Part shown: positions 224-64,000 of the stretch, in pieces
Position numbering within the stretch: the stretch's first letter is position 1
How the letters are laid out: each line of letters begins with the position of its first letter
DNA from: Streptomyces lushanensis
Lineage (GTDB): Bacteria > Actinomycetota > Actinomycetes > Streptomycetales > Streptomycetaceae
Assembly: GCF_001700515.1 (NCBI RefSeq)
Contig: NZ_MAUD01000103.1
Span: forward strand, 1 to 64,000
DNA: 64,000 bases
Direction of reading: 5' to 3'
The notes under the pieces: generated by a model
What the model saw: the letters and a program-made list of their open reading frames with translations, nothing else
Told to the model about the DNA's origin: nothing
The model's database searches: none
Made by a program: the position numbers and the translations under genes

Positions 224-409
224 GTGTTCCCCCTCACAAGGAGGACGGCCGGGCCCGCGCCCTGGTTGCACTCCACGCCGCAAGGGCGCATCCGCATGCC
301 ACCTGGGCCTACCCCGACTGCGGCGGTTCCGTTCGCACTCTCATCACACTTCGTGTTCACATGAAAGCGCAAAGTCATCTTCTGTTTTTGGTCAACCAGA
401 GGAGTTGCC

Positions 410-8244: not shown

Positions 8245-8260
8245 GCGGCGGGCACTGACC

Positions 8261-10663: not shown

Positions 10664-10717
10664 GCCGTGCCCAGGTGTCCTGGCGGGCGCCGGGTGTGCG
10701 CCGTGCCGGGGCGGGTG

Positions 10718-11773: not shown

Positions 11774-11886
11774 GTATCCAGCGTGCGGCGGGCGCCGACG
11801 AGGGGCAAACGGTCGGCGGACCGCCCCTCGCCCGTCGCCGGGGCCCGCCGCGGCGCCGCCCGAACGCGGGGACCACGGGACACCCC

Positions 11887-13233: not shown

Positions 13234-13353
13234 GCGGGAACCGCCTTCGCGTCGGCCTCCTCCGGCACGGCCCGGATCACCGCGTCCGGGGAGGCATGGG
13301 AACTACGGGACCGACGGCGTGAGGGCCGCCCGCCGGGAGGCCGCCGGAGTGCG

Positions 13354-34109: not shown

Positions 34110-34575
34110 CGAGGTCTCCTCGCATCTCAGGGGACACAACAGACGCACTGACTCGCCGGTGACATCCCGCACAACGTAGTTGAAGGAACAACGATCGACC
34201 GGACGCGCGGGTGCGCGATCAAGGATCCCGTACCCGTGGAGCCACTGGCGCCGGTGGCTCCGGGCGCGCTGAGCAGGTCATCGACCAATCGATGCCTGGG
34301 GACTACCCCACGAGGACTGGATCACTCACCACCGTCTTGCAGACGCCAGAAGTCGTTCGGAAATCGAGATCATGGCATACGGACCGCGCCGCGGATGCCC
34401 GGACAGGACACCGTTCCGGAAGAGCAACTCCCTTCCGGGGTACGGCATTCGGGGGCATCCGGTCCTCGACGGCGTCCGGCGCTCGGTGCTCCGCGCGGTG
34501 TGGGACGGAGCGGGGGAGGAGAGGGTGGTGGGGGGACATGTCGTGCGTGGTGCCCCGGGGGCCGGCCGGTAGGCG
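34110..34575. promoter_or_regulatory. Intergenic region before the LAL operon
   Basis: This non-coding stretch separates the thioesterase stop from the first LAL. It should hold the thioesterase terminator and the LAL operon promoter. An 8-bp inverted repeat with an 8-nt spacer (GGAGCCAC 34238-34245, GTGGCTCC 34254-34261) is about 130 bp from the LAL start. Open frames here lack ribosome sites. Confidence 0.45.
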
Positions 34576-35600: not shown

Positions 35601-37035
35601 TCAGGACAAACCCAGTTCGTCGTCGAGAAGCGCGAACACGTCGTCGTCCGACGCCGCGTCGAGATCGAACTCGCCCGTGCCGTCCGCAGGTTCGCGGCGC
35701 AGCGCCGCCCACTTCGTCCTCAGCACCTCGATCCGTCCGGCGACATGCTTGAACTCCTGTGCGTCGACGGTCAGTTCCGCGATCGCCTTCTCCAACTGGT
35801 CGAGCCCGGCGAGTACGGAGCCGGTCCCGGTGACCTCCTCCGTGACGAGCTGGGAGTGGAGATGGTCCACGACATCGGCCGCCGTGGGGTGGTCGAACAG
35901 GAGGGTGGCGGGCAGGCGCAGTCCGGTCGCGGCGTTGAGCCGGTTCCTGAAGTCCACCGCCGTCAGCGAGTCGAAGCCGAGTTCCTGGAACTGGCGCGTG
36001 GCCCCGATCGCCGTCCCGTCCGTGTGTCCGAGCACCACGGCGGCCTGGTCCCGTACCAGTTTCAGCAGTACCTCACGGCGCTCCTCGTCGGTCAGCCCGG
36101 TCAGCCGTCGTGCGAGCGTGTCCGCCGCCCGCGGAGCGGCCGTGGCCGTGGCGGACCGCCGGGAGGTCGTACGGATGAGGCTCCGGAGCAGCGGCGGGAT
36201 CTCACCCCGGGCGGCCCGCAGGGCCGGCAGGTCCAGCTGTACGGGGACCATCAGCGCCCGGGTGCCGGTGGCCACCGCGTCGAAGAGCTCCACGCCCCGG
36301 GCGGCGGGGAGCGGCGGCATGCCCGAGCGCGCCAGCCGTCGCATGTCCGCCTCGGACACGGTGCCGGTCATCCCGCCCGACCCCTCCCACGGACCCCATG
36401 CCAGCGATACGCCGGGCAGACCCTCGTCCGCGCGGTGCGCCATCAGCGCGTCCAGGAAGGTGTTGGCGGCGGCGTAGTTGCCCTGGCCCGCACCGCCGAA
36501 CACACCGGCCACGGACGAGAACACGACGAACGCGGTGAGATCGAGGTCCCGCGTCAGTTCGTGCAGATGCCAGGCGGCGTCGGCCTTGGGACGCAGGACG
36601 GTGTCCAGCCGCTCGGGTGTCAGCGAGCCGATGGTGCCGTCGTCCAGCACACCCGCCGCGTGCACCACGGCCGTCACCGGATGCTCGGCGGGCACCGCGG
36701 CCAGTACGCCGGCCAGCGCGGCGCGGTCGGCGACATCACAGGCGGCGGCGGTCACCTCGGCCCCGAGGCCGGTCAACTCGTGGACGAGGTCCTGGGCACC
36801 CTCGGCGCCGATGCCTCGGCGGCTGAGCAACAGCAGCCTCCGTACGCCGCGCTCCGCGACCAGGTGCCGGGCGAGGACTGCGCCGAGCCCGCCGGTTCCA
36901 CCGGTGAGGAGGACTGTGCCGCCTCGCTCCCAGGTGGCCGGGGTGACGGGGGTGGACGCGCCGGCCGGAGTGGCGGGGCGGTCGGGTCGGTCGAGTAGGT
37001 CGGGTCGGTCAGGGAGGACGCGTCGGTCGGGGCAT
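35601..37035 (-). CDS. C-terminal part of the modular PKS (catalytic KR, ACP, docking domain), out of frame with the main PKS reading frame
   Basis: This frame carries the rest of the last PKS module. The KR starts with [21 protein letters not shown] (36.90-36.94 kb) and has the B-type LDD motif in HAAGVLDDG, the catalytic Ser in VFSSVAG and Tyr in GNYAAANTF. The ACP has the phosphopantetheine Ser in [13 protein letters not shown] (about 35.97 kb). A C-terminal docking domain ([19 protein letters not shown] through [11 protein letters not shown]) ends the protein, so there is no thioesterase domain and the chain passes to another PKS subunit. It has no plausible start codon or ribosome site of its own and is a -1 shift away from the upstream frame. 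The left bound given is approximate; the join lies between 36.94 and 37.04 kb. See the frameshift entry. Confidence 0.85.
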
Positions 37036-40000: not shown

Positions 40001-43000
40001 CCATACGGTCTGCTCGGTGAGCAGTTCCACCGCGCCCGCCTGCCAGTCCACATGCGACGACGGCGCGTCAACGTGAAGCGTCCGAGGCAGAACCCCGTGC
40101 CGCATCGCCATCACCATCTTGATCACGCCAGCCACACCAGCAGCCGCCTGCGTATGCCCGATGTTCGACTTCACCGACCCGAGAAGCAGTGGACGCTCCG
40201 GATCGCGGTCACGCCCGTACGTCGCCAGCAACGCCTGCGCCTCGATCGGATCACCCAACGTGGTCCCCGTGCCGTGCGCCTCCACGACATCCACATCACC
40301 CGCAGACAACCCACCACTCGCAAGCGCCTGCCGGATCACCCGCTGCTGCGACGGACCATTCGGAGCCGTCAGACCATTCGACGCACCATCCTGATTCACC
40401 GCAGACCCACGCAACAACGCAAGCACCTCATGACCACGACGCCGCGCATCCGACAACCGCTCCAGCACCACCACACCCACACCCTCCGACCAGCCCACAC
40501 CATCAGCCGAATCCGAGAACGCCTTGCACCGACCATCAGGCGACAACCCACGCTGACGCGAAAACTCCACAAACGTCCCAGGAGTCGACATCACCGTCAC
40601 ACCACCCGCCAACGCCAACGAGCACTCACCGCCCCGCAACGCCTGAGCGGCCAGATGCATCGCGACGAGCGACGACGAACACGCCGTGTCCACCGTCACC
40701 GCGGGACCTTCGAAACCGAAGGTGTACGACACCCGGCCCGAGGCCACGCTGCCCGCACTGCCCTGGCCCTGATGGCCCTCGAACTCCTTGCCGTTCAGCG
40801 TCGTTCCGTAGTCGCTGTACATCACCCCCGCGAACACGCCCGTCTGGCTGTCGCGCAGTGAGTGCGGGTCGATACCGGCCCGCTCGATCGCCTCCCACGA
40901 CGCCTCCAGCAGCAACCGCTGCTGCGAATCCGTCGCCAACGCCTCACGCGGCGACATACCGAAGAACACCGGATCGAAATCGCCTGCGCTCTGGAGGAAT
41001 CCGCCCGAGCGGGTGTACGACGTACCGGCGTGGTCCGGGTCCGGGTGGTAGAGCGACTCCACGTCCCAGCCACGATTGGCCGGGAACTCGGAGATCGCGT
41101 CCGTGCCCTCGGTGACCAGCCGCCACAGATCCTCCGGCGACGCCACCCCGCCCGGGAACCGGCAGCTCATCCCCACGACCACGATCGGATCGTCCGCTGT
41201 CGACGGCAGAAGCCGGAGCGGGACAGACGCCTCGGTCTCGGCCTCGCTCCCGAACAGCTCGTCGCGTAGATGGTCCGCCAGAGCCGTCGCGGTCGGGTAG
41301 TCGAAGATCAGCGTGGCGGTGAGGCGCAGGCCGGTGACCGTACTCAGCCGGTTACGCAGTTCGATCGCCGTCAGCGAGTCGAAGCCCAGGTCCCGGAACT
41401 GGGATACGGCGTCGACGGCTCCACCGTCGGCGTGTCCGAGCACCAGGGCGACCTGACTCCGCACGAGATCCAGAAGGGCTTCCCGTCGCTCCACGGCGGT
41501 GAGTCCGGCCAGCCGAGCGATCAGACCGGTCGCGGTGGCCGATCCGGTCACCGCGCTCCGGCGCGAACGTGCCGGGATCAACGCCCTGAGTACGGACGGT
41601 ACTTCGCCCTGCGCGCGGAGCGCGGGAAGATCCAGCCGTACGGGGACGAGAGCCGTCAGGCCCGTGGCGAGCGCGGCATCGAAGAGCGCCACACCCTGGT
41701 CGACGGAGAGCGGTGGCATGCCCGAGCGCGCCAACCTCCGCATGTCCGACTCGGTGACAGCGCCCGTCATACCGCCGCCCGTCATACCGCCGCCGGTCAT
41801 GCCTCCGATCCGGTCCCAGGGGCCCCAGGCCAGCGATACGCCCGGCAGGCCCTCGGCCCTTCGGCGTTCGACCAGTGCGTCGAGGAAGGTGTTCGCGGCG
41901 GCATAGTTGGCCTGCCCGGCGCCGCCGAGGAGACCCGCCACGGAGGAGAAGACGACAAACGCGGCGAGGCCGAGATCTTGGGTCAGTTCGTGCAGATGCC
42001 AGGCCGCGTCGGCCTTGGGGCGCAGCACGGCGTCGATCCGCTCGGCCGTCAGCGAGCCGACAGTGCCGTCGTCCAGCACGCCCGCCGTATGGATCACGGC
42101 CGTCAGCGGATGCTCGGCCGACACCGACGCCAACAGCCCGGCCAGCGCCTCCCGGTCCGCCGCGTCGCACGCGGCAACCGTCACCTGGGCACCGTACAAA
42201 GTGAGTTCGGCGACCAGTTCGGCCGCGCCGGGGGCCTCAGTACCTCGTCGGCTCGCCAACAGCAGGCGGCGGACTCCTCGTTCGGTGACCAGATGCCGCG
42301 CGAACACACCGCCCAGGCCGCCTGTGCCGCCGGTGATCAGTACCGTACCGTCGGGGTCCCAGACCGGGCCCGTACCGCCGTCGGCAGCGGCCTCGACATC
42401 GGTAGCGGGAGCGGTGGCGGCCTCGATATCGGCGCCCGAGGGGACGGTCGTACGGACAAGGCGTCCGGCGGAGATCTCACCGTCACGGATCAGCAGGGCG
42501 GGCTCGTCCATACCGAGCGCGTGCGGCAGCGCGGTGAGCGACGCCGTGCCGGAGTCGAGATCCAGCAGCCCGAAGGAGCCCGGGTTCTCCGTCTGCGCGG
42601 AACGTACGAGGCCCCAGACGGAGGCCGCCGCCACATCGACGGCACGGGCCTCACCATCGCCGCCCTCGCCGGTGCCCCCGACCGCGCCCCGGGTGACGAA
42701 CACCAGCCGGGAGTCCGCGAACCGCTGCTCGGCCAGCCACTCCTGTACCAGGGCCAGCGCGCTCGCCGTCAGCGTGTGCGCGGACTCCACGACCTGGCCG
42801 TCGGAATCGCCCGCAAGTCCCACCAGTCCCACCAGGACGGTGTCCGGCACCGGCCCCTCCCCCGTCGCCAGCGACGCGAGATCGTCGTATGTCCCGACCA
42901 GGAGACCCGGTCCCGCCAGCGGTTCGGCGAGATCCAGCACGTCGGCCCCGAGGACGGCGACCGACGGCGGGACGTCCGGAGCAGGGGCCACAGGGGCCCA

Positions 43001-46000
43001 GGCAAGCTGGAACAGTGCGTTGGTGGCAAGGATCCCGATGTCACCGAGCCCGTCGCTCGACACGGCTCGTACCAGGAGCGAGTCGACGGAGGCCACCGGA
43101 GCGCCGGAGGTGTCCGCGACCGCGATCGACACGGCGTCCTTGCCGCCGGCCGGTGCGATCCGTACACGCAGCACCGAGGCACCGGTCGCGAACAGCGACA
43201 CGCCCTCCCACGAGAACGGCAGACCTCCGCCTTCCCGCGCGCTGTCGCCCGCCAGGAGCGAGGCGTGCAGGGCGGAGTCGAGCAGCGCCGGGTGCAGACC
43301 GTACGCTCCCGCCTCGGTGCCCTCGGGCAGGCTCACCTCGGCGAAGATCTCACCGTCACGGCGCCAGGCGGCACGAAGACCCTGGAAGACCGGACCGTAC
43401 ACGAAGCCGATCTCCGCCAACCGCTCGTAGCAGCCGTCGAGTTCCAGCGCCTCGGCGCCCCTCGGCGGCCACACCGTGGCGTCGAAGCCGGTGGCCGGCT
43501 CCTGGACGCCGACGGCCAGTGCGCCCGTCGCGTGCTGTGTCCACGGCACGTCAGCGGCGCCCTCGGGCCGGGAGTGGATGGTGACCGTACGCCGGCCCTT
43601 GTCGTCGGCGGCGCCGACCCGTACCTGTGTCTGAACCGCGCCACGCGCCGGCAGTGTGAGCGGCGCCGCGAGCGTCAGCTCCTCCACCCGGTCGCAGCCG
43701 ACCTCGTCGCCCGCCCGGAACGCCAGCTCCAGCAGAGCGGTTCCCGGCAGCAGCACCCGGCCCATCACCACATGATCGGCGAGCCATGGATGTGTTCCGA
43801 CCGAGAGACGGCCGGTGAAGAGCATTCCCTCGCCCTCGGCCAGTTCGACCGCGGCGCCCAGCAACGGATGTCCGGCCGGGCCCAGGCCCGCGGCCCGCAT
43901 GTCGCCCGTTCCGCCGAGCGGACCGGTCGGCCAGAACCACTGGTGCTGGAAGGCGTACGTGGGCAACTCCACCCGCCGCGCACCGGTTCCGACGAAGAAC
44001 CGGCCCCAGTCCACCGTCACACCATGCGTGTGCAACTGAGCCAGCGCGGTGACGGCGGCCAGCTCCTCCGGCCTGTCCTTCCGGAGGACCGGCACCACAG
44101 CGGCGGCGTCTCCCGCGCCCTCCCGCACGAGAGCGGAGAGCACGCCGTCCGGGCCCAGCTCCACGAAGGCCGCGACACCTTGCGCCGTGAGCGTGGTGAC
44201 GCCGTCGGCGAAGCGGACGGCCTCGCGGACATGCCGTACCCAGTACTCCGGAGAGCACAGCTCCTCGGCCGACGCGAGCCCGCCCGTCAGATTCGACACC
44301 ACCGGAATACGAGGAGGCTGGAAGGCCAGCCCTTCGGCCACCGTACGGAACTCGTCCAGCATGGGGTCCATCAGCGGCGAGTGGAACGCGTGCGAGACCC
44401 GAAGGCGGTTGGTTTTACGTCCCTGGTCCGCCAGCCGGACGGCCAGCTCCAGGACGGCGTCCTCGTCACCGGAGATGACCACGGAGGACGGACCATTGAC
44501 CGCTGCGATCGACACCCGGTCCGAGAGACAGGGGACGATCTCGTCCTCGGTGGCCTGGACGGCGACCATCGCACCACCGGCCGGAAGCGCCTGCATCAAC
44601 AAGCCCCGCGCGACCACCAGACGACAGGCATCCTCCAACGAGAACACACCCGCCACATGAGCCGCGGCGATCTCGCCAATCGAATGGCCCGCCACGAAGT
44701 CGGGCCTGATGCCCCACGACTCCACCAACCGGAACAGCGCCACCTCGATCGCGAACAACGCGGGCTGAGTGGAGGCCGTCTCATTCAGCGCTTCGATGTC
44801 CTCGCCCCAGATCACCTCACGGAGCGAACGGCCCAACTGGCCTTCCAGCGAGGTGAGTACGGCATCGAACGCCTCGGCGAAGACGCGGAACCGACCGTAC
44901 AGCTCACGCCCCATACCCAGCCGCTGCGAACCCTGACCCGAGAACAGCACCGCCGACCTCCCACCGGCGACCGAACCCGAGACCGCCAACGGATCCGGTT
45001 CACCGGCGGCCACCGCCACCAGCGCACGCGCCGCATCAGCGGAGCCGGCCGCCAGCACCACCGCACGATGCTCGAACACCGAACGACCCGTCGCCAACGA
45101 GAACCCGACATCCACCGGCCGCACGTCCGGCCGAGCCTCCACCAACGACAACAAACGCGCCGCCTGACCCCGCAACGCCTCCGGCGTCCTACCCGAAAGC
45201 ACCCAGGGAACCGTCACCGCTTCGGCCGGGTTCTCCGTGGGAGTCTGCGTCGCCACCGTCTCGGGCACTTCCGACGGCTGCTCCAGAATGACATGCGCGT
45301 TCGTGCCACTGATACCGAAGGACGACACCCCCGCGCGCCGTACGCGGCCTTCCTCCGGCCATACGGTCTGCTCGGTCAGCAGCTCGACCGCGCCCGCCGA
45401 CCAGTCCACGTGCGACGACGGCTCGGTCACATGCAGTGTCCGCGGCACCGTCCCGTGCCGCATCGCCATCACCATCTTGATGACACCCGCCACACCAGCA
45501 GCCGCCTGCGTATGCCCGATGTTCGACTTCACCGAACCCAGCAGCAACGGACGCTCCGGATCACGGTCACGCCCGTATGTCGCCAGCAACGCCTGCGCCT
45601 CGATCGGATCACCAAGAGTGGTCCCCGTGCCGTGCGCCTCCACGACATCCACATCACCCGCAGACAACCCACCACTGGCAAGCGCCTGCCGGATCACCCG
45701 CTGCTGCGACGGACCATTCGGCGCCGTCAGACCATTCGACGCACCATCCTGATTCACCGCAGACCCACGCAACAACGCAAGCACCTCATGGCCATTGCGC
45801 CGGGCGTCCGACAACCGCTCCAGCACCACCACCCCCACACCCTCCGACCAGCCCACACCATCAGCCGAATCCGAGAACGCCTTGCACCGACCATCAGGCG
45901 ACAACCCACGCTGACGCGAAAACTCCACAAACGTCCCAGGAGTCGACATCACCGTCACACCACCCGCCAACGCCAACGAGCACTCACCGCTCCGCAACGC

Positions 46001-49000
46001 CTGCATCGCCCAGTGCATCGCCACCAACGACGACGAACACGCGGTGTCCACCGTCACCGCCGGACCCTCAAGCCCCAGCGTGTACGACACCCGGCCCGAG
46101 GCCACACTGCCCGCACTGCCCTGACCCTGGAAGCCCTCGAACTCCTCACCGCTGAGGGTGGTGCCATAGTCGTTGTACATCACCCCGGCGAACACGCCCG
46201 TCTGGCTGTCGCGCAGCGATACGGGGTCGATACCCGCCCGCTCGATCGCCTCCCACGAGGTCTCCAGCAGCAACCGCTGCTGCGAATCCGTCGCCAACGC
46301 CTCACGCGGCGACATACCGAAGAACGCCGGATCGAACTCCCCAGCCGTATGCAGGAATCCACCCGACCGCGTGTAGGAAGTCCCACTGTGGTCCGGGTCC
46401 GGGTCGAACAACGCGTCGACGTCCCATCCGCGATTGACCGGGAAGTCCGAGATCACATCGGTGCCCTCGGTGACCACACGCCACAGATCCTCCGGTGACG
46501 CCACACCGCCCGGGAACCGGCAGGCCATGCCGACCAGCACAATCGGATCGTCGGCCACCGGCGGCAGCGACGACACCGGGACGGACGACTCCGGCTCGGA
46601 GCCGAGCAGTTCGGCGAGCAGATGGTCCGCCAGCGCCGACAGCGTCGGATAGTCGAAGGCCATCGTGGCCGGCAGACGCAGACCCGTGGCGGTGCCGAGC
46701 CGGTTCCGCAGCTCCACCGCCGTCAGCGAGTCGAAGCCGAGGTCACGGAACGCCCGCCCCGAGTCGATGTCGGCACCGCTCGCGTGTCCCAGTACCAGGG
46801 CCGCCTGGGCCCGTACGACATCCAGCACCACTTCCTTGCGGTCGGCGGGCTCCAGCGCGCCCAGCCGGCGCACCAGAGCGCCGTCCGCGCCCGAAGCCGC
46901 GGTCGCCGTCCGGCGCGACGGTGTCCGCACCAGACCGCGAAGCAGCGCCGGTACGGTGCCCAGGGCACGCAGCACCGGGAGATCGAGCCGTACGGGTACG
47001 ACGACGGCCTCGCCGGTCGCGAGCGCCGCGTCGAAGAGCGCGAGGCCCTGTTCCACCGGCAGCAGTGGCATACCGGCGTCGGCGGCCCTGCGCACATCCC
47101 GCGCGTCAAGTCCGCCGGTCATGCCTGCGACCTGGTCCCACGCACCCCAGGCGAGCGACAGGCCCGGCAGTCCCTCGGCCCGCCGATGGGCGGCGAGCGC
47201 GTCCAGAAAGGCGTTGCCCGCCGCGTAGTTGGCCTGTCCGGCGCCCCCGAACGTACCGGCCACCGAGGAGAACACCACGAACGCGGCGAGATCCAGCTCA
47301 CGAGTCAGCTCGTGCAGATGCCAGGCCGCGTCCGCCTTCGGCCGCAGCACACGGTCCAGCCGCTCCGGGGTGAGCGAACCGATCACACCGTCGTCCAGTA
47401 CACCCGCCGTGTGGATCACGGCCGTCAGCGGATGCTCGGCCGGCACCGACGCCAGCAGCCCGGCCAGCGCGTCCCGATCGGCCACATCGCACGCGGCGAC
47501 CGACACATGCGCACCCCGGGCGGTCAGCTCGGCCGCCAGATCCTCGGCACCTTCCGCCGCGGGCCCACGACGACTGGTCAGCAGCAGATGCCGTACGCCC
47601 CGCTGACCGATCAGATGACGGGCCAGCACCCCGCCCAGACCGCCCGTGCCGCCGGTGATCAGTACCGTACCTTCGGGATCCCAGGCGGAGCCGACCGTCT
47701 CGGACCCGGACCTGAGTTCGGACCTGGCCTCGGTCACGGTCACTCGGGTCAGGCGCCCGGCGCGGATCCCACCGTCACGGACGAGCAGTTGTGGTTCCTC
47801 GACACCGAGTACGCGCGGCAGCAACGTCGCCGAGGACTCGGCGGAGTCCAGGTCGACCAGCCCGAAGCAGCCAGGGTTCTCCGTCTGCGCGGAGCGCACC
47901 AGGCCCCAGACCGAGGCCGCCGCCACATCCGCGACCTCCTCACCACCTCCGGCGACGGCCCCGGTGGTGACGAACACCAGCCGGGAGCCGGCGAATCGCT
48001 CCTCGGCCAGCCACTTCTGCACCAGGGCCAGCGCGTCGGCGGTCAACGCCCGGACGGAGTCGGTGACTTCGGCGCCGTACGCACTGGACACGCCCACCAG
48101 CACCGCATCCGGCACCGGGGCCGACCCGGCCGCGAGTGACGTCAGATCCCCGTGCCTGACGAGCTCGACGCCCGTACGTGCCAGTCCTTCGGCGAGCCCG
48201 ACGACATCCGGGCCGATCAACGCGACCGTACGAACGGCGGATTCGGCCGGCAGCGCCACCGGTACCCATCCCACTCCGAACAGCGCGTCGTGGGTCGCCC
48301 CCGCGCTGCCGCCGCTCAGCTGTTCGCCCGAGACGGGCCGTACGCGCAGCGAATCGACGGAGGCAACGGGCCGGCCCGCCGTGTCGGCGACCTCCACCGA
48401 GAGTGTGTCGTGACCGGCGGGAGTGATCCGTACGCGAAGTGCCGTGGCGCCCGTCGCGTGCAGGGACACACCCTCCCACGAGAACGGCAGACCTCCGCCT
48501 TCTCGGGTGCTGTCACCCGCCAGGAGCGAAGCGTGCAGGGCCGAGTCGAACAGCGCCGGATGCAGACCGTACGCTCCCGCCTCGATACCCTCCGGCAGAC
48601 TCACCTCGGCGAAGATCTCACCGTCACAACGCCAGACCGCACGAAGACCCTGGAACATCGGACCGTAGACAAAACCGAGCTCCTCGAACCGCTCATAGCA
48701 GCCCTCCACCGCCAGCACCTCGGCACCCACGGGCGGCCACACCACGGCATCGAACCCGGTGACCGGCTCATGGGCCCCACTGGCCAGCACACCGGTCGCA
48801 TGCTGTGTCCACGACGGCTCATCGCCCCCGTCAGGACGGGAATGCACCGTGACCGCACGCCGACCGACCTCATCGGCAACACCGACACGAACCTGCACCT
48901 GAACCGCACCCAGCTCAGGCAGCACGAGCGGCGCCGCAAGCGTCAACTCCTCCACCCGGTCACAACCGACCCCGTCACCCGCCCGGAACGCCAACTCCAA

Positions 49001-52000: not shown

Positions 52001-55000
52001 GGCCGGGAGCCGGAGCCCGCTCACAGTGTTGAGCCGGTTCCGCAGCTCGACCGCCGTCAGCGAGTCGAAGCCCAACTCGCGGAAGGCACGGCCGGGATGG
52101 ACGGCCTCGGCGTCGGCGTGTCCCAGCACGAGGGCGACCTGCCCGCGTACCAGATCCACCAGCACCTCCTGCCGCTCGACGACGGTGAGCGCCCTCAGGC
52201 GCTCCACCAGGCCCTGGGCGGTCGCCGAGCCCGCGACCGCCGCGCGGCGCGCACGTGTGCGGATCAACGCCCGCAGGAGCGGCGGAACTTCGCCTTGCGC
52301 GCGGAGCGCCGGCAGGTCCAGCCGTACCGGCGCCAGCACGGCGTCACCGGTGGCCAGCGCGGCATCGAACAGCGCGAGTCCCTGCTCCACCGGGAGCGGC
52401 GGCACTCCGGACCGCGCCATCCGGTCCGTGTCGGCCTCCGTCAGTGTCCCGGTCATCCCGCCCGACTCCCACGGGCCCCAGGCCAGCGCGACTCCGGGCA
52501 GACCTTCGGTACGCCTGCGCTCCATGAGGGCGTCCAGGAAGGCGTTGCCCGCCGCGTAGTTGCCCTGTCCCGCGTTGCCGAAGGTGGCCGCTGCCGAGGA
52601 GAAGACCACGAAGGCCGTCAGGTCGAGATCGCGGGTGAGTTCATGGAGGTGCCAGGCCGCGTCCGCCTTCGGCCGCAGCACACCGCTCAGCCGCTCCGGA
52701 GTGAGCGCGCCGACCACGCCGTCGTCCAGGACGCCCGCCGCGTGGACCACCGCCGACACACGGTGTCCGGCCAGCAGCTCCGCGAGCGCCGCACGGTCCG
52801 CCACATCGCAGGCCGCCGCGGTGACCTGGGCTCCTCGCCGCTCAAGCTCCGCAACGAGTTCTTCCGCGCCCTCGGCCGCCGGTCCCCGCCTGCTGACCAG
52901 CAGCAGTCGTCGTACATCGTGCTCCGCCACCAGGTGCCGGGCCAGCACGGCGCCCAGACCACCGGTACCCCCGGTGATCAGCACAGTGCCGCCGTCGGTG
53001 TTCCAGACGGGACGTGCGTCGCTCCCGGCCGCCGGCCGGCGCACCAGGCGTCCGGCGCGTACCTCACCGTCGCGGACCACGATCTGTGGCTCGTCCGTGT
53101 CCAGAGCCGCCGGCGGCAGGGCCGTCGTCTCCTCGTCGGGATCGAGATCGATCAGGCCGAAGCAGCCGGGATTCTCCGACTGGGCGGACCGTACGAGACC
53201 CCGGACCGAAGCCGCCGCCACATCGTGACCGCCGACGGCGCCGCGTGTCACGAAGACGAAGCGGGAGTCCGCGAAGCGCGCCTCGGCCAGTCGGGCCTGG
53301 ACCAGAGCCAGGGCCCGGTGGGTGAGCGTGTGTGCGGAGGCGGCGGTGTCGGTCTCGGCGCCCTCTTCCCCGACCACGGGGATCAGCACCACGCCCATCG
53401 GCACCACGTCCATGGGCTGACCGCCCGTCGGCTGACCAGACACCTCGCCGGTCGGCAGCTCGCCCGTCGGCAGCTCATCGAGGACATTGACCTCGGCGCC
53501 CGCGGCGCGCAGGGCCTCGGCGAGGCCCAGGGTGTCCGGGCCGAGCACCGCCACCGTCCGCTCGGACCACCCGGACCGCTCAGACCGTCCGGCCCGCGCC
53601 GAAGCCGCGCCGGAGGGAGCCGCCACCGGCGTCCAGTCGAGCCGGAACAGCATGTCCCGTGTCAGTGCGTCGGCATCGCTCAGGCTCTCGCCGGACAGGG
53701 CCCGCAGCGCCAGCGACTCCACGGAGGCGACCGGCGCACCCATGGTGTCGGCGACAGCGATCGACACCGTTCCCTCGGTCGTACGGGACAGCCTGACCCG
53801 CACGCTGGAGGCTCCCGACGCCTCCAGCGACACACCGCTCCAGGAGAACGGGACACCCAGCGGTACTCCGCCCGCGCGGCCGTTCGCGTCGGCGGGCGAG
53901 CCGATGAACCAGGCCGCGTGAAGACCGGCGTCCAGCAGCGCGGGATGCAGTCCGAACGCCTCCGCGTCGGCCCGGACGCCGTCCGGCAGGCTCAGCTCGG
54001 CGAAGACCTCGCCCTCGCGCCTCCAAGCGGCCCGTAGACCCTGGAAGACCGGACCGTAGACGAAACCGTCCTCGGCGCGAGCCTCGTAGAAACCGTCCAG
54101 CTCCACCGGTTCGGCGCCCACCGGCGGCCATACCGTGGCATCGAAGCCCGTTGCGCCGAAGCCCGTCGCACCAGAACCTGTGGCGTCGGCCCCGGAGAGG
54201 ACCGCGGCCGTTGGGCCGGCGGCCAGTACGCCCATGGCGTGCTGGGTCCAGGGCGCCTCGGGCTCACCCTCGGGCCGCGAGTGGATCGTCACAGTACGCC
54301 GACCGCTCGCGTCGGCCACCCCTACCCGCACCTGTGTCTGTGTGGCGCCCCGCTCCGGCAGCACCAGCTGCGCCGCGAGAGTCAGTTCGTCGACACGGTC
54401 GCTGCCGACCTCGTCCCCGGCCCGGATCGCCAGCTCCAGCAGGGCCGTTCCCGGCACCACGATCCGGCCCGTCACCGCATGATCGGCGAGCCATGGATGG
54501 GAGCGCACCGAGAGGCGTCCGGTGAACAACACGCCTTCGCCCTCGGCCAGTTCGACCACGCCGTTCAGCAGCGGATGTCCGGCGGACACCAGACCGACCG
54601 CGGCGGCGTCGGCCGCGCCGCCCGTGCCGTCGGGCCAGTAGGGCCGGTGCTCGAAGGCGTACGTGGGCAGCTCCACGCGCCGCGCGCCGCTTCCGGCGAA
54701 GTACCGGGGCCAGTCCACGGAGACACCGTGCACATGCAGTTGGGCCAGTGCGGTGACGGCGGACAGTTCCTCGGAACGGTCCTTGCGGAGCACCGGCACC
54801 GTGACCGTACCGTCGGGCACCGACTCCCCGGCCATCGCGGAGAGCACCCCGTCGGGCCCCAACTCGACCAGTACGGTGGCACCTTGTCCGGCGAGGGTAC
54901 AGACTCCATCGGCGAAGCGGACGGCCTCCCGGACATGCCGTACCCAGTAGTCGGAGGTGCACAGCTCCTCCGGGGACGCAAGCCCACCGGTCAGATTCGA

Positions 55001-58000
55001 GACCAGAGGAATGGTGGGTCGCCGGTACGACACCGTCTCCGCCACGGCACGGAACTCATCGAGCATCGGCCGCATCAGCGGTGAGTGGAAGGCATGCGAG
55101 ACCCGGAGCCTGGTCACCTTCCGGCCGTCCCGCTCCCACCGGGCCGCGATCTCCAGGACGGCATCCTCCTCGCCCGAGATCACCACCGAAGAGGGCCCGT
55201 TGACCGCCGCGATCGACACCTGGGCCTGTGCCCCGTACTCGGACAGCAGCGGGACGATCTCGTCCTCGGTGGCCTGGACGGCGACCATCGCGCCACCGGC
55301 GGGCAGCGCCTGCATCAACGAGGCACGGGCCGCCACCAGACGACAGGCGTCCTCCAGCGAGAACACCCCCGCCACATGAGCCGCGGCAATCTCACCGACC
55401 GAATGCCCCGCGACGAAGTCGGGCCTGACGCCCCACGACTCCACCAACCGGAACAACGCCACCTCGACTGCGAACAACGCAGGCTGCGCACAGCCCGTCG
55501 CGTTCAACGCCTCGGCATCCTCACCCCAGATCACCCCCCGAAGCGACCGGCCACCCAGCTCACGACCCAACTCGCCGTCCAGCAAGCCCAGTACGGAATC
55601 CAGCCCCTCCGCGAACACCGGGAACCGCCCGTACAACTCGCGCCCCATGCCGAGCCGCTGCGAACCCTGACCCGAGAACAGCACCGCCGTTTTCCCACCG
55701 ACGACCGAGCCGGTGAGGGCCAGTGGATCCGGTTCACCGACGGCCAGCGCCGCCAGCGCGCGTACCGTCCCGCCGTCCTCCGCGGCCGTCACCACCGCGC
55801 CGTGCTCGAACCTCGACCGGCCGGTGGCCAGCGAGAACCCGATGTCCACCGGTCGTAGTTCGGGCCTGGCCTGGATGCAGGAGAGCAGCCGGGCCGCCTG
55901 GCCGCGCAGCGCCTCCGGTGTCTTGCCCGACAGCACCCAGGGCACCGCACCCGGCGCCCGCGACCCGACGGGCGGCGCGGCTTCGGCGCTGCCGGGCACC
56001 GAATCCTGGATCACCGTGGGCGGCTGCTCAAGAATGACATGCGCGTTGGTGCCGCTGATACCGAAGGACGACACGCCCGCGCGCCGGACATGATCGGTCC
56101 CGGGCCATTCGGTGGGCACGGTCAACAGTTCCACCGCGCCGGCCGACCAGTCGATGTGTGACGACGGCTCGGTGACATGGAGCGTCGGCGGCAGCACACC
56201 ATGACGCATCGCCATGATCATCTTGATCACACCCGCGGCTCCGGCCGCGGCCTGGGTGTGGCCGAGGTTGGACTTCACCGAGCCCAGCAGCAGCGGACGC
56301 TCCGGATCACGGTCACGCCCGTACGTCGCCAGCAACGCCTGCGCCTCGATCGGATCACCAAGAGTGGTGCCCGTACCGTGCGCCTCCACCACGTCCACAT
56401 CGGCGGGCGAGAGACCACCGGCGGCGAGCGCCTGACGGATCACCCGCTGCTGAGAAGGGCCGTTCGGCGCGGTGAGACCGTTGGAGGCACCGTCCTGGTT
56501 GACTGCGCTGCCCCGGAGGACGGCGAGGATCTCATGGCCCCGGCGCCGGGCGTCCGACATACGTTCCAGCAGGAGCATGCCGATGCCCTCGGACCAGCCG
56601 ACACCGTCGGCCGACTCGGAGAAGGGCTTGGACCGGCCGTCGGGTGCGAGGCCCCGCTGCCGGGAGAACTCCACGAAAGTGTCGGGGATCGACATCACGG
56701 TGACACCGCCGGCCAGTGCCAGCGAGCATTCACCGCTCCGGAGCGCCTGGGCCGCGAGATGCATCGCGACGAGCGACGACGAGCACGCCGTGTCCACCGT
56801 CATCGCGGGGCCCTCGAAGCCGAAGGTGTACGAGACCCGGCCCGAGGCGACGCTCAGCGCGCTGCCCTGGCCCTGGAATCCTTCGAACTCCTTGCCGTTC
56901 AGCGTGGTGTTGTAGCCGCTGTACATCACCCCGGCGAAGACACCGGTCCGGCTGTCGCGCAGCGAGTGCGGGTCGATGCCGGCCCGTTCGATCGCCTCCC
57001 ACGAGGTCTCCAGCAGCAACCGCTGCTGCGAGTCCGTCGCCATCGCCTCGCGCGGGCTCATCCCGAAGAACGCCGCGTCGAACTCGCCCGCGTCATGGAG
57101 GAATCCGCCGGAGCGGGTGTACGACGTACCGGTGTGGTCCGGATCCGGGTGGTAGAGCGCGTCCGTGTCCCAGCCACGGTTCACCGGGAAGTCCGAGACC
57201 ACATCGGCGCCCTCGGAGACCACACGCCACAGATCCTCGGGCGACCCGATGCCTCCGGGAAAACGGCAGCTCATGCCCACGACGACAATGGGGTCGTCAT
57301 CGAGCAGGGCCGGGGAGAGCTCGGGTACGGCGGCCGGGGCGGTGTCCGGGCCCAGCAGTTCTTCGAGCAGATGACCGGCCAGTACCTCGACCGTCGGATA
57401 GTCGAAGACCATGGTGGCGGGCAGCCGCATCCCGGTCGCCGCGTTCAGCCGGTTGCGCAGTTCGACAGCGGTGAGGGAGTCGAAGCCCAGATCGCGGAAG
57501 GCACGCGCCGGATGGACTCCGTCGCCGCTCGTGTGGCCCAGGACCAAGGCCGCGTGGTCACGCACCAGTTGAAGCAGTGTCTCGTGCCGTTCCGCGCGCT
57601 CCAGCCGGCTCAGCCGCTCGGCCAGACCGGCGTCCGTGCCCGTGCCCGTACCCGATCCGGCTCCCGCGGCCACCGTCCGCCGGGAACCCGTACGGACCAG
57701 TCCGCGCAGCAGCGCGGGAACGGAGCCCTTGGCGCGCAGGACGGGCAGATCGAGGCGTACGGGCAGAACCACGGCCTCGGCGGTCGCGAGGGCCGCGTCG
57801 AACAGGGCGAGGCCCTGTTCCACCGGGAGCAGCGGCATACCCGACTCGGCGGCGCGGCGGACGTCGCGGTCGTCGAGCCCGCTGGTCATGCCCACACCCT
57901 GGCCCCAGGGACCCCAGGCGAGCGACAGGCCCGGCAGTCCGACGGACCGCCGATGGGCGGCGAGCGCGTCCAGGAAGGCGTTGCCCGCCGCGTAGTTGGC

Positions 58001-61000
58001 CTGCCCCGGGCCGCCGAACGTACCGGCCACGGACGAGAAGACGACAAACGCGGCGAGTTCGAGATCGCGGGTCAGTTCGTGCAGATGCCAGGCCGCGTCC
58101 ACCTTGGGCCGCAGTACGGCGTCCAGCCGCTCGGGCGTCAGCGAGCCGACGGTCCCGTCGTCCAGCACGCCCGCCGTATGGATCACGGCCGTCAGCGGAT
58201 GCTCCGGCGGAACCGACGCCAGCAGTTCCGCCAGCGCCTCCCGGTCCGCCACATCACAGGCGACGACCGACACATGCGCACCCCGGGCGGTCAGCTCGGC
58301 CGCCAGATCCTCGGCGCCGTCGGCAGCAAACCCGCGTCGGCTGGTGAGCAGCAGATGGCGCACACCCAGGTCATTGACGAGATGGCGTGCCAGCACACCG
58401 CCCAGACCGCCGGTACCACCGGTGATCAGCACCGTACCGTGGGCATCCCACACAGACGGCATCGACAGCACGATCTTGCCCACATGCCGGGCCAGACTCA
58501 TAAAACGGAACGCATCCCGGGCCCGACGCACATCCCACGAACGAACCGGCAACGGCTCCAGCACCCCTTGGCCGAACAGTTCCATGAGAGAACTCAGCAT
58601 CCGCTGGATGTCCTCCGGATCCACCCAGCCGAGATCGAACGCCTGATAATCCACCCCGGCAGGAAGATCGGCCACGTCACGAACATCCGTCTTGCCCATC
58701 TCCAGGAACCGGCCACCCGGACCCAGCAACCGCAACGACGCATCCACAAACTCACCGGCCAGAGAGTTCAGTACGACATCGATCCCCTCACCACCCGCCA
58801 CCCCGGCGAAAGCAGCCTCAAAATCCGTCGTCCGAGACGAGGCGATGTGGTCCTCCGCCACCCCCAGCGAACGCAGCACACCCCACTTGCCCTCACTCGC
58901 CGTCGCGAAGACCTCCGCACCAAGATGACGCGCGACCTGAACCGCCGCCATCCCCACACCACCCGCACCCGCATGAACCAGCACCCTCTCACCACGACCC
59001 AGACCCCCCAAACCGACCAACGCGTGATACGCCGTCAGAAACACCAACGGCACCGAAGCCGCCGTCTCCCACGACCACCCCACGGGCAGTGTGGTGAGCA
59101 GCCGCGCGTCGCCCACCACCAGTGAGCCGAATCCTCCGGACACCAGGCCCGTGACGCGGTCGCCGGGCCGCAGCCCGGTCACCTCCGGCCCCACCTCGAC
59201 CACCACGCCCGAGGCCTCCCGGCCCATACGCCCGGCGTCGCCGGGATACATGTCCAGTGCTTTGAGGACATCACGGAAGTTGACACCGGCCGCACGGACC
59301 TCGATCCGTACCTCGAACCCCATCAGCGGTTCCAGTGCCTCCGGGAACGGTGTCGTCGTCAGACCGTCCAGGCTTCCCTTCGCCCCGCTGTCCAGCCGCC
59401 AGGGCACATCCGTGGGCGGGATCAGGGCCATGTCCGGCGCCAGCCGCGCGAGCCGCCCGGCCAGGAGTGCTCCGTCACGGACGGCCATCTGCGGCTCGTC
59501 CGCACCGGCGGACCGCGCGAGCCGCGTCATGAGCGGGGCAAGGCCGTCGTTCCCGGGGCCGAGGTCCAGCAGGCCGAAGCAGCCCGGATTCTCCGTCTGT
59601 GCCGAGCGCACCAGGCCCCACACCGACGCCGCGGCCACATCGGTGACCTCCTCGTCCCCGGCCGCCACCGCGCCTCGCGTCACAAACACCAGCCGCGAGC
59701 CGGTGAATCGGTCCTCGCTCAGCCACTCCTGCACCAGGGCGAGGGCATCGGCTGTCAGTACGTGCACCGCCTCCACGGGCCCGGTCCCAGCGCCGGCCCC
59801 GGTGCCGACTCCGATGCCTGTGCCGGTGCTGTCGGTGCCGTCCGTGCCGTTGACCTCGACCAGCACGGTGTCCGGTACCGAGAGCTCTCCCGCCGCCAGC
59901 GACGCCAGGTCCGCATGGACCTCGATCCCGACGCCGGTACGGACCAGTTCCTCCACCAGCCCGAGGGCATCCGGTCCGATCAGCGCGAGCCTCTCCGCAC
60001 CGGGCATGGAACCACCGGGCACAGGAACGCCGGGTACGGGGGCCCACTCCAATGTGAACAGTGCGTCGCGGACGTATCCGGCGGCGCTGTCGAGCCGGTC
60101 GTCCGACACCGCACGTGTGAGCAGCGAGTCGGCCGAGGCCACGAGCGCACCCGTGGTGTCGGCGACCGCGATCGACACCCCGTTCCTGCCTTCGGCGGGA
60201 GTGATCCGTACGCGAAGTGCCGTGGCACCCGTCGCGTGCAGCGACACACCCTCCCACGAGAACGGCAGACCTCCGGTGCCCTCCTCGCCGTCACCCGCGA
60301 GGAGCGAGGCGTGCAGGGCCGAGTCGAACAGCGCCGGATGCAGACCGTACGCTCCCGCCTCGGTACCCTCGGGCAGACTCACCTCGGCGAAGATCTCACC
60401 GTCACGACGCCACGCGGCACGAAGACCCTGGAACATCGGACCGTAGACAAAGCCGAGCTCCTCGAACCGCTCATAGCAGCCCTCCACCGCCAGCACCTCG
60501 GCGCCCACGGGCGGCCACACCACGGCATCGAAGTCAGCAGGCACGAGCTCATGGGCTCCGACAGCCAATACCCCGGCCGCATGCTGTGTCCACGACGGCT
60601 CGTCGCCCCCGTCAGGACGGGAATGCACCGTGACCGCACGCCGACCGACCTCATCGGCAACACCGACACGAACCTGCACCTGAACCCCACCCAACTCAGA
60701 CAGCACGAGCGGAGCCGCAAGCGTCAACTCCTCCACCCGGTCACAACCGACCCCGTCACCCGCCCGGAACGCCAACTCCAACAACGCCGTCCCCGGCAAC
60801 AACACCCGACCCAGCACCACATGATCAGCAAGCCAACCATGCGACCGCACCGACAACCGACCAGTGAGCAACACACCTTCGCCCTCGGCCAGCTCGACCG
60901 TCGCGCCCAGCAACGGATGCCCGGCCGGGCCCAGGCCCGCCGCCCGTACATCATGCGCGCCGGCCGACGAGGCAGTCGGCCAGAACCACTGGTGCTGGAA

Positions 61001-64000
61001 GGCATATGTGGGCAGATCGACCGGTCGGGCGCCGGTGTCCGCGAACAACACCGGCCACTCCACATGAGTACCGCTCACATGCAGTTGAGCAAGCGCGGTG
61101 ACGGCCGAGGTCTCCTCGGACCGGTCCTTGCGGAGCACCGGTACGACCACCGCACCCTCCGGCACCGACTCCTGCACCATCCCCGCCAGCACACCGTCCG
61201 GACCCAACTCCACAAACGTACGAACACCCTGCTCACCCAGCGTCCGCACACCGTCCGCGAAACGCACCGCCTCCCGCACATGCCGAACCCAATACTCCAC
61301 CGAACACAACTCACCGGCGGACGCCAGCCCACCCGTCAGATTCGACACCACCGCCACCGACGGCTCCGCGAACGCCAACCCCTCCACAACCGCCCGGAAC
61401 TCCCCCAGCATCGGATCCATCAGCGGCGAATGAAACGCATGCGACACCCGAAGACGACTCGACTTACGACCCAAGGCCTCCAGTTGGGCCGCCACCTCCA
61501 GGACGGCATCCTCCGCGCCGGAGATCACCACGGAGGACGGACCATTGACCGCCGCGATCGCGACTCCATCGGAGAGATACGGAACAACCTCGTCCTCGGC
61601 GGCCTGGACCGCCACCATCGCACCACCGGCCGGCAATGCCTGCATCAGCAAGCCCCGCGCCACCACCAAACGACAGGCATCCTCCAACGAGAACACCCCC
61701 GCCACATAAGCAGCCGCGACCTCACCGACCGAATGCCCCGCCACGAAATCCGGCCGCACACCCCACGACTCCACCAACCGGAACAACGCCACCTCAACCG
61801 CGAACAACGCAGGCTGCGCACAGCCCGTCGCGTTCAACGCCTCGGCATCCTCACCCCAGATCACCCCCCGAAGCGACCGACCACCCAACTCACGACCCAA
61901 CTCCCCGTCCAACAAACCCAGTACCGAGTCGAACGCCTCCGCGAACACCGGGAACCGCCCATACAACTCGCGCCCCATACCCAGCCGCTGCGAACCCTGA
62001 CCCGAGAAGAGAATCGCGCGCTTTCCACCGACGGCCGGACCCGAGACCACCGAGATGTCCGGTTCGCCTGCCGCCAGCGCGGCCAGTGCGCGTACCGGAT
62101 CGGCGGACTCGGCCGCCAGGACCACCGCACGATGGTCGAACACCGAACGACCCGTCGCCAACGAGAACCCGACATCCACCGGCCGCACGTCCGGCCGAGC
62201 CTCCACCAACGACAACAGCCGCGCCGCCTGCCCCCGCAACGCCTCCGGCGTCCTGCCCGAAAGCACCCAGGGAACCGCTACCGCTTCGGCCGATTCGTCC
62301 ATGGAGATCTGCGCCGTCACCGCCTCGGGCACTTCCGGCGGCTGCTCAAGAATCACATGCGCGTTCGTCCCACTGATACCGAACGACGACACCCCCGCAC
62401 GCCGGACACGGTCGACCTCCGGCCACACCGTCTCCCCGGTCAGCAACTCCACCGCACCCACCGACCAGTCCACATGCGACGACGGCTCATCGACATGAAG
62501 CGTCCGAGGCAGAACCCCGTACCGCATCGCCATCACCATCTTGATCACACCCGCCACACCAGCAGCCGCCTGCGTATGCCCGATGTTCGACTTCACCGAA
62601 CCCAGCAGCAACGGACGCCCAGGATCACGCTCACGCCCATACGTCGCCAGCAACGCCTGCGCCTCAATCGGATCACCAAGCGTCGTACCCGTACCGTGCC
62701 CCTCCACCACATCCACATCACCCGCAGACAACCCACCACTCGCAAGCGCCTGCCGGATCACCCGCTGCTGCGACGGACCATTCGGCGCCGTCAGACCATT
62801 CGACGCACCATCCTGATTCACCGCAGACCCACGCAACAACGCAAGCACCTCATGGCCATTGCGCCGCGCATCCGACAACCGCTCCAGCACCACCACCCCC
62901 ACACCCTCCGACCAGCCCACACCATCAGCCGAATCCGAGAACGCCTTCGAGCGGCCGTCGGGCGCGAGACCCCGCTGGCGGGAGAACTCCACAAAGGTGC
63001 TCGGAGTGGACATGACCGTCACACCGCCGGCCAGCGCCAGCGAGCACTCGCCGCCGCGCAGCGCCTGCGCGGCGAGGTGCATGCCCACCAGGGACGACGA
63101 GCACGCGGTGTCCACCGTGACCGCCGGGCCTTCGAGGCCCAGGGTGTACGAGACCCGGCCGGAGGCCACGCTCGGAGCGCTGCCGTTGCCGCGGAATGCC
63201 TCGTACTCCTCGCCCGTGAGCAGGGGACCGTAGTCGTTGTACATCACCCCGGCGAACACACCGGTCCGGCTGTCGCGCAGCGAGTGCGGGTCGATGCCGG
63301 CCCGTTCGATCGCCTCCCACGAGGTCTCCAGCAGCAACCGCTGCTGCGCGTCCGTCGCCATCGCCTCGCGTGGTGACATACCGAAGAAGTCGGGGTCGAA
63401 CTCGCCCGCCGTGTGCAGGAATCCACCGGCGCGGACGTAGGTCCTGCCCGGACGGTCCGGGTCCGCGTCGTACAGTCCGTCGATGTCCCAGCCCCGGTTG
63501 ACCGGGAAGCCCGAGATGGCGTCCCCGCCCTCCATGACCAGGCGCCACAGATCCTCCGGCGAGGTCACCCCGCCCGGATAGCGGCAGGCCATGCCGACGA
63601 TCGCGATGGGGTCGTCGGCCACCGGAGGCAGGGCCGTACGGTCGGGCGCCGCCGACGCGTCGGCGGAGCCGATCGCCTCGCCGAGGAGTTCGTCGCGCAT
63701 ATGGTCGGCGAGCGCGCTCGGTGTCGGATAGTCGAAGACCATGGTGGCCGGGAGCCGCAGCCCGGTCTCGGTGTTGAGGCCGTTGCGCAGTTCCACCGCC
63801 GTCAGCGAGTCGAAGCCCAGGTCCTGGAACTGGCGGCCGGCCTCGACCTCCGCCGCGTCGGCGTGGCCCAGTACCCGGGCGACCTGGCCGCGTACGAGAT
63901 CGAGCAGGATCTCGCGGCGCTCGGCGCCGTTCAGTCCGGCGAGGCGCCGGGCGAGGCCGTCGGCGGTGCCGGAGACCCGGGCGGCGGCGCGCCGGGCAGG
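36773..64000 (-). CDS. Modular type I polyketide synthase, polyene type, partial (continues beyond right edge)
   Basis: This very large frame (over 9,000 residues visible) is the elongation subunit of a modular PKS. It contains the ACP of an upstream module, one KS-AT-DH-ER-KR-ACP module, three KS-AT-DH-KR-ACP modules and most of a fifth module before the frame is lost. All KSs have DTACSSS and the [10 protein letters not shown] or [10 protein letters not shown] motif. All ATs have GHS(V/I)G and HAFH, the malonyl-CoA signature. All DHs have HxxxGxxxxP and HPAL(F/L)D. All KRs have LDD, so B-type. Each dehydrated, unreduced unit should be a trans double bond; the ER unit is saturated. The gene neighbours (editing thioesterase, three LALs, PAS-LuxR) match a nystatin-like cluster, where NysC holds this place. 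The frame ends at 36773 in nonsense sequence because of the apparent frameshift. Confidence 0.95.
36936..37040 (-). other. Apparent -1 frameshift within a repetitive interdomain linker
   Basis: Upstream sequence is PKS-like in one frame down to about 37.04 kb, and from about 36.94 kb onwards only in the frame shifted by -1. Between them lies a run of GGTCGG/GTCGGTC-type repeats (36979-37010 region). One missing base (or two extra) in this tract would explain the break. It may be a real slippage mutation or an assembly/base-calling error. Confidence 0.85.
41210..46560 (-). other. PKS module D: KS-AT-DH-KR-ACP
   Basis: KS about 45.27-46.56 kb (Cys about 46.04), AT about 43.93-44.96 (malonyl), DH about 43.06-43.88 ([10 protein letters not shown]), KR about 41.68-42.36 (LDD) with a triple GGMTG repeat near its C-terminal end, ACP about 41.26-41.52. 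It should make one double bond. Confidence 0.92.
41763..41807 (-). repeat. Three tandem 15-bp in-frame repeats in the module D KR
   Basis: Units CCCGTCATACCGCCG at 41763-41777 and 41778-41792 are identical; 41793-41807 differs at three positions. On the coding strand they encode GGMTG-type repeats where other modules have one copy. Replication slippage is the likely cause. Confidence 0.85.
48600..49145 (-). repeat. DH-coding block of module C, near-identical to 60380-60927
   Basis: This is the counterpart of the module A DH block. Similarity falls off at both ends: in the linker before the DH and in the sequence after it. Confidence 0.8.
49610..49850 (-). repeat. AT-coding block of module C, near-identical to 61390-61630
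   Basis: This is the counterpart of the module A AT block. A further stretch at about 50.00-50.24 kb is also shared with module B (55.40-55.68 kb), showing a patchwork of exchanges. Confidence 0.75.
51910..57300 (-). other. PKS module B: KS-AT-DH-KR-ACP
   Basis: KS about 56.03-57.30 kb (Cys about 56.79), AT about 54.64-55.69 (malonyl), DH about 53.70-54.59 ([10 protein letters not shown]), KR about 52.34-53.00 (LDD; Ser in VFSSAAA; Tyr in GNYAAGN), ACP about 51.94-52.19. The post-DH linkers contain in-frame tandem repeats (LPTGE twice, ATGF twice). It should make one double bond. Confidence 0.92.
60380..60927 (-). repeat. DH-coding block of module A, near-identical to 48600-49145
   Basis: Only scattered mismatches separate this segment from its counterpart about 11.8 kb away. 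It uses an unusual set of A- and C-ending codon complements not seen in the flanks, for example the stretch around 60770-60860. The shared pattern implies recent duplication or gene conversion between modules A and C. Confidence 0.8.
61390..61630 (-). repeat. AT-coding block of module A, near-identical to 49610-49850
   Basis: The stretch coding for the [15 protein letters not shown] region and the preceding [21 protein letters not shown] residues is essentially the same as in module C. The flanking AT sequence diverges. Confidence 0.75.
63680..64000 (-). other. PKS upstream module: ACP only
   Basis: The carrier domain has [13 protein letters not shown] around 63.79-63.83 kb, followed by [21 protein letters not shown]. 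It belongs to a module whose KS and AT lie past the window. The preceding sequence to 64000 is continuous in frame. Confidence 0.9.

Follow-up and report, generated by a model that had tools for sequence, protein, structure and literature searches.

Previously, the enoylreductase (ER) of module 5 in the nystatin-like synthase subunit NppC has been reported to reduce C28-C29 (PMC6134108), and inactivation of ER5 in NysC has been described to give a heptaene (nystatin review, PMC12844000). Pseudonocardia endophytica has been predicted to produce nystatin A3 in a paper that mentions more than 250 polyene clusters (PMC8944477). Furthermore, mandimycin, which bears three sugars (PMC12955498), comes from Streptomyces netropsis DSM 40259 (PMC12560086) and was found via a glycosyltransferase of the mycosaminyltransferase kind (PMC12560086, PMC12775259). 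In the literature listings and passages searched, a natural cluster with the ER in module 4 was not found.

The present study concerns a locus of Streptomyces lushanensis in which the ER occupies that position. We consider it probable that the region encodes the NysC-position subunit (modules 3-8, M3-M8) of a nystatin-type glycosylated polyene synthase with a rearranged module order, an intact copy of which would lead to a mycosaminyl pentaene.

Domain layout of the subunit

The stretch analysed, hereafter the window, comprises positions 1-64,000 of the 76,982-bp contig C6 in a 7.5-Mb draft genome of 732 contigs. The minus-strand frame was translated and parsed by Pfam, by motifs and by HMMs built from the subunit's own domains. 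A six-module gene runs on the minus strand from 69,043, where its ATG lies beyond the window, to 35,601, with M3 as DH-KR, M4 as DH-ER-KR and M5-M8 as DH-KR. The ACP of M3 and its upstream linker occupy 63683..64000 (motifs, own HMMs), and the KS-AT-DH-KR remainder of M3 lies outside the window at contig 64085-68953 (own HMMs). From 63,625 down to 35,844, Pfam and the own-HMM parses both find what the first-pass annotation had described, a fully reducing module followed by four KS-AT-DH-KR-ACP modules. The fully reducing M4 (57353..63625; Pfam, motifs, own HMMs) consists of KS (62300-63625), malonyl AT (61046-62038), DH (60053-60910), ER (58466-59440), KR (57773-58441) and ACP (57353-57622). 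M5 (51938..57307), M6 (46604..51847), M7 (41252..46561) and M8 (35844..41203) follow, and the expected docking domain is seen as a coiled-coil-like C-terminal region ending in the stop codon (35601..35843); all of these lie on the minus strand. The annotation's guess of at least six modules thus becomes exactly six, with the DH-KR module M3 before the ER module. Its suggestion of a longer subunit fails, as the ER-third subunits of Streptomyces sp. CB01373 and P. endophytica also have six; compared with those two, four rather than three DH-KR modules follow the ER module, as it had said of NysC.

Every AT of the gene carries the malonyl motif HAFH, every DH has HxxxGxxxxP and HPAL(L/F)D, and every KR has GGTGGLG, (V/L)DD and YxxxN, in agreement with the malonyl-type ATs and B-type KRs first proposed. 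Scored with HMMs built from these same domains, KS, AT, DH, ER and KR reach 397-944 bits and the ACPs 150-155; given these scores and the agreement of the Pfam models, chance is no explanation for the layout. ER4 has an intact NADPH motif, and 317 of its 321 residues align to the SpnB ER (3slk) with an E value of 6e-110. The residues that we take to be the catalytic Lys and Asp of SpnB are kept in this alignment. DH8 keeps the DH histidine and aspartate, and both DH motifs, when compared with the rifamycin DH (4ln9). By motif, no inactive ER or DH, a possibility that the first-pass annotation had raised, was found in the six-module gene; the defects found are instead a broken frame in M8 and an ACP9 that lacks its serine. 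ARAGORN also calls a tRNA-Gly (ccc) at window 52349-52427 (minus strand), inside the KR5 coding sequence and on the same strand, which is probably a false positive.

The rest of the assembly line

Six further PKS contigs of the genome were placed by synteny on two contigs of Streptomyces odonnellii NRRL B-24891. C62, C112, C731, C1 and C222 are consecutive there, with overlaps of about 20 to 210 bases; a gap of about 3.2 kb, into which most of M18 falls, separates C222 from C333, and one of about 160 bases separates C333 from C6. Upstream of the six-module gene lies a subunit with two methylmalonyl-type ATs (M1-M2). C62 encodes two ABC transporters and a GDP-mannose dehydratase and also holds the beginning of the next subunit (KS-AT-DH), C112 holds M10 and the KR-ACP of M9, and C731 holds the methylmalonyl AT of M11. 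KR13, on C1, scores weakly and is without the KR motifs searched for. The trimodular subunit on C222 has its ER in the first module (M15), and the DH of its M17 is without HxxxGxxxxP. C333 carries the loading subunit (its KS without a DTACSS-type motif), the mycosaminyltransferase, an aminotransferase, two P450s and the ACP-TE end. The mycosamine set (GDP-mannose dehydratase, aminotransferase and glycosyltransferase) and two P450s are therefore present.

Beyond the subunit, the minus strand of the window encodes a discrete type II thioesterase in the NysE position (34576..35328; PF00975), three large ATP-binding LuxR-family regulators in the NysRI (31206..34172; PF13191 and PF00196), NysRII (28293..31187) and NysRIII (25409..28351) positions, and a PAS-LuxR regulator of the PimM/NysRIV type (24324..25007; PF08448 and PF00196). 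With C333 and C6 joined by S. odonnellii synteny, the order nysA-B-C-E-RI-RII-RIII-PAS-LuxR with a divergent nysDI, which we take to be that of the nystatin cluster, is present. NCBIfam added nothing polyene-specific for the ten proteins scanned. Adjacent to the cluster in the window, a phosphoketolase, a family 65 glycoside hydrolase, an alcohol dehydrogenase and a family 4 glycoside hydrolase (5458-13302) stand in an order conserved in S. odonnellii. A 123-residue protein at 365-736 (plus strand) matches MiAMP1 (PF09117), a family named for a plant antimicrobial peptide; this small, antifungal-like protein is encoded fairly near the antifungal cluster. Contig C8 (10320-35729; L011, L012) carries a further type I PKS, also with malonyl-type ATs, that is not part of the polyene cluster, and S. 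odonnellii contig C545 has a similar layout.

Predicted product

In an intact copy, such as that of S. odonnellii, M3 would set an isolated C32=C33 double bond and M4 would saturate C30-C31, because its ER stands one module earlier than ER5 of NppC, which acts on C28-C29. M5-M8 together with M9 of the next subunit would then set five conjugated double bonds over C20-C29. The first-pass annotation had placed a whole tetraene within the one subunit. That four DH-KR modules in a row come behind the ER module within a single gene does invite the idea that M5-M8 make the entire polyene and that the next subunit opens with a non-dehydrating module, but we rejected this as highly improbable since M9 has both DH and KR. 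C62 starts the next subunit as KS-AT-DH with both DH motifs, the KR on C112 has LDD and YxxxN, and the two contigs overlap by about 20 bases on S. odonnellii, where M9 is DH-KR in one frame. As M9 opens the next subunit as DH-KR, a conjugated pentaene is expected.

The remaining line would be nystatin-type, with two methylmalonyl modules first, a methylmalonyl M11, a weak KR13 and ER15. Nystatin has a ring size of 38. The predicted mycosaminyl pentaene would share this ring size and nystatin's number of double bonds and would probably be a positional isomer. The early notion of a nystatin-like but distinct macrolide is thereby upheld, with a predicted pentaene as the point of difference.

Occurrence of the layout

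A 391-residue query from the ER4 module matched at least 76 loci in genome contigs, and 76 were parsed with our own HMMs. Among the nine NysC-type loci readable for ER position, a sample biased by the ER-derived query, the ER is second in seven (this genome, S. odonnellii, S. netropsis, Streptomyces fulvorobeus, Streptomyces sp. CB00316, Streptomyces sp. L-9-10 and Actinomycetospora sp. NBRC 106378) and third in two (CB01373 and P. endophytica). Longer stretches were used for this count where they had been fetched, and L021 (too short), G028 and G119 (too fragmented or frame-broken) were left out; the L-9-10 sequence ends just past the KS after the ER module, and frame breaks interrupt those of CB00316 and S. 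fulvorobeus. A mycosaminyltransferase at E 1e-90 or better occurs in 14 of the 295 genomes of the genus sample, and four of these 14 enzymes, this genome's included, are at least 86% identical to the one here. The layout is not unique to this strain; it is a variant of the nystatin-type synthase, a known kind of system.

Two defects in this assembly

The frame from M3 to DH8 stops at 36,773, and KR8, ACP8 and the docking region sit in the frame of 35,601-37,310. The change of frame lies at approximately 36930..37060 (minus strand), in the low-complexity, repeat-rich DH8-KR8 linker. The relative G028 has DH, KR and ACP in one frame across this site, and S. odonnellii and S. netropsis have all six modules in one frame. 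The single protein of the first-pass annotation therefore holds as one gene, intact in these two species, and is broken within M8 in this assembly. The second defect is in ACP9 (contig C112, about 6500-6700; L008), where the frame is open and 69 nt (23 residues) are absent, including the chain-carrying serine. S. odonnellii has this stretch, and G028, the closest relative found (mycosaminyltransferase 96% identical), has 69 more bases there, from which its serine is deduced. Between KR18 and ACP18, C333 moreover has 30 consecutive N.

Were both defects real, the cluster would be dead in this strain and no polyene would be made. The two open frames do meet in the DH8-KR8 linker, ACP9 does lack bases found in relatives, and the defects hit neighbouring modules. 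We nevertheless regard a dead cluster as unlikely, considering that the draft is in hundreds of contigs, that a low-complexity linker and an ACP resembling many others are both prone to assembly failure, that the serine motif is present in all 18 remaining ACPs of the cluster's 19, and that the draft frame breaks of S. fulvorobeus and CB00316 are at other places. Judged from these features, both defects are likely to be assembly or sequencing errors. If either were real, this strain would not make the polyene and the prediction would hold for the intact relatives.

Descent of the modules

Units running from the end of the KR through the ACP to the start of the next KS were compared in a linker tree of seven clusters. 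The M3 units of all seven group together, and the M8 units likewise. The own M5 unit groups with M5 of S. odonnellii, M5 and M6 of S. fulvorobeus, and M6 of both ER-third clusters and of Actinomycetospora (99/98); the own M5 also joins nystatin-type M6 in the DH tree (100/99), so that nystatin-type M6 is its counterpart in both trees. The own M4 goes with the ER-third M5 at 87/90 (not starred), and the seven ER-bearing units come together at 66/94. The KR-ACP unit of M6 falls in a 12-row group of M4/M5/M6 units that includes all seven ER-bearing and the nystatin-type M4 units (97/99), and its grouping with nystatin-type M4 was not rejected (p 0.24, linker). Positional homology with the ER-third type is rejected for M4, M5 and M6 both in the linker alignment (p 0.007, 2e-6 and 2e-32, respectively) and in the DH alignment (4e-63, 3e-6 and 7e-5, with a bootstrap that had not settled). 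The shifted groups were named after the tree had been seen, and the trees hold only two ER-third clusters.

Other domains follow paths of their own. The own DH4 pairs with the own DH6 and not with nystatin-type DH5, and the M4-M8 ATs sort by species. In a quick KS tree, KS4 stays in its place (95) and the KS after the ER module moves with that module (99). As far as can be judged from sequence, gene conversion blurs the module assignment. Within the S. fulvorobeus NysC locus, M5/M6 (KR 96%) and M7/M8 (KR 98%) are near-duplicates, which suggests module conversion or recent duplication.

The order would have been rearranged at constant length, the ER module and its follower standing before, and not after, one DH-KR module when compared with the ER-third order. 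The pattern would suit exchange units that begin at an AT and end with the following KS, because the ATs cluster by species, KS4 is positional and the KS after the ER goes with the ER. Recognition between ER and KS has been reported for azalomycin (PMC9899208), and since a laboratory deletion across modules 4 and 5 of NysC was obtained (PMC12844000), recombination there is feasible.

Kinship of ER4 with ER5 and ER15

For the first 122 ER residues, the five Streptomyces ER4s other than that of S. netropsis form a clade (95/92), and the Actinomycetospora ER4 goes with the ER5s (93/97) on a long branch; ER4s and ER5s together make up one side of a weak branch (71/93). Joining the Actinomycetospora ER4 to the Streptomyces ER4s was rejected on this N-terminal part (p 0.009, with groups chosen after seeing the tree), and with it a single origin of the ER-second layout in the two genera. 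The linker test of the five ER-second modules gave p 0.046; placing the S. netropsis ER4 with the other Streptomyces ER4s gave p 0.15. The Actinomycetospora M5 unit corresponds to nystatin-type M4 (95/93) and its M6 unit to M6 in the linker tree, so its module order differs from that of the present lineage.

The remaining part of the ER groups by genome, here at 100/99, and in S. fulvorobeus (100/100), CB00316 (100/98), Actinomycetospora (97/84) and, weakly, S. odonnellii (89/90); in S. netropsis it does not. ER4 and ER15 of four genomes were also compared as DNA in 60-nt windows. The longest identical ER4/ER15 run is 153 nt here, 421 in S. fulvorobeus, 422 in CB00316 and 66 in S. odonnellii, and the longest that any ER4 shares with another ER4 is at most 58 nt. 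Over the last ~600 nt, identity between ER4 and ER15 is 98-100% for S. fulvorobeus and CB00316 and 75-100% for S. odonnellii and the present genome; much of the cofactor half is thus near-identical between the own ER4 (C6, 58466-59440) and the own ER15 (C222, from 13207). Over the first 360 nt, other ER4s are at least as close as ER15 in most windows, with exceptions that include the first three in S. odonnellii. We read this pattern as suggesting recurrent gene conversion between ER4 and ER15, mainly in the cofactor-binding half. Copying of ER4 as a whole from ER15 was not adopted: whole-ER trees mix the two, but trees of the N-terminal part separate them; holding ER4 and ER15 together on that part was not rejected (p 0.22). 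The ER15 of L-9-10 (L052) appears split, but its gap holds unknown residues of the assembly and was not taken as a deletion.

Discussion

Our fullest reading is that, where the cluster is intact, the members of this group produce a mycosaminyl pentaene not yet described, of nystatin's ring size and isomeric with nystatin in its double bonds, on a synthase that arose by whole-module transposition (3-5'-6'-4'-7'-8' in nystatin numbering) at constant chain length, and that the ER-second layout evolved at least twice, with different module orders, in Streptomyces and Actinomycetospora. Taken with all its parts, this may be so, but it falls short of probable.

Two other histories have to be weighed against transposition. 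The ER domain alone could have hopped from module 5 to module 4, leaving the surrounding DH-KR modules in place; the fixed position of KS4 and the separation of the own DH4 from nystatin-type DH5 would agree with this, and Actinomycetospora, with M6 and M8 units matching nystatin-type M6 and M8, could fit it. Such a hop nonetheless appears quite unlikely, as M5 of this lineage matches nystatin-type M6 in both its DH and its KR-ACP part, two alignments reject homology by position for M5 and M6, and the KS following the ER module moves too. The direction of change could also be the reverse, with the ER-second order ancestral and the ER-third order of nystatin and amphotericin derived. S. netropsis does fall outside a group containing both types in KS3 (0.99; 95 in the quick tree), in the M3 linker (100/97) and in DH3 (100/99). 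We find this polarity conceivable but somewhat improbable: the NysDI tree gives no resolution (its S. fulvorobeus row covers a third only), Actinomycetospora shows that the ER-second layout can arise anew, and the clusters are few. Transposition of whole modules thus remains our preferred, if tentative, account.

Taken together, these clusters amount to a natural experiment: the position of the reducing module varies at a constant module count. The comparison suggests that the ER module, the module behind it and the KS after that travel as a set, and that ATs (by species) and much of the ER's cofactor half (by the other ER) are overwritten; such knowledge would be useful for polyketide synthase design. 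Besides, if the prediction is true, a pentaene isomer of nystatin would stand between the tetraenes and the heptaenes, which differ in antifungal strength and toxicity.

The nystatin/NPP type, represented by P. endophytica, has in common with this line a six-module NysC-position subunit after the methylmalonyl M1-M2 of NysB, a methylmalonyl M11 in NysI, ER15 in NysJ and a mycosaminyltransferase homologue (77%). It differs in having its ER in the third module (module 5) of an 11,066-codon frame, where the ER here is second (module 4), and in an expected tetraene plus diene, compared with a pentaene plus isolated alkene here. CB01373, an amphotericin-like cluster, likewise has a six-module subunit after a two-module methylmalonyl subunit and an M9-M14 type six-module subunit that opens with DH-KR, as here; however, its ER is in the third module, and its polyol ER is in M16, whereas here it is in M15, the first module of the NysJ homologue.

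The cluster of S. odonnellii is collinear with our contigs, at about 78-90% DNA identity in collinear blocks, and has the same layout in one 10,998-codon frame, with subunit frame and ACP9 intact; a product of the NRRL B-24891 cluster was not found in the literature. S. netropsis CECT 3265, presumably the same strain as DSM 40259, has the identical six-module layout with the ER second in one 11,631-codon frame. Its genome has a single mycosaminyltransferase homologue (E 1e-90), and genes for a nucleotidyltransferase, a dehydratase/epimerase and an EryCIII-like glycosyltransferase directly follow the nysC homologue. These features, together with the reviews on S. netropsis DSM 40259, make it probably the mandimycin cluster; the characterised cluster of the same layout that the first-pass annotation had allowed for thus probably exists. 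Here, additional deoxysugar or glycosyltransferase genes are absent from the 272 bases between PKS and thioesterase, and from the four C333 and six C62 genes scanned.

Engineered amphotericin pentaenes carry module deletions (PMC10974182). Selvamicin from Pseudonocardia, compared here by its description, is a natural nystatin-related glycosylated pentaene, with a smaller ring and rhamnose instead of mycosamine (PMC8944477).
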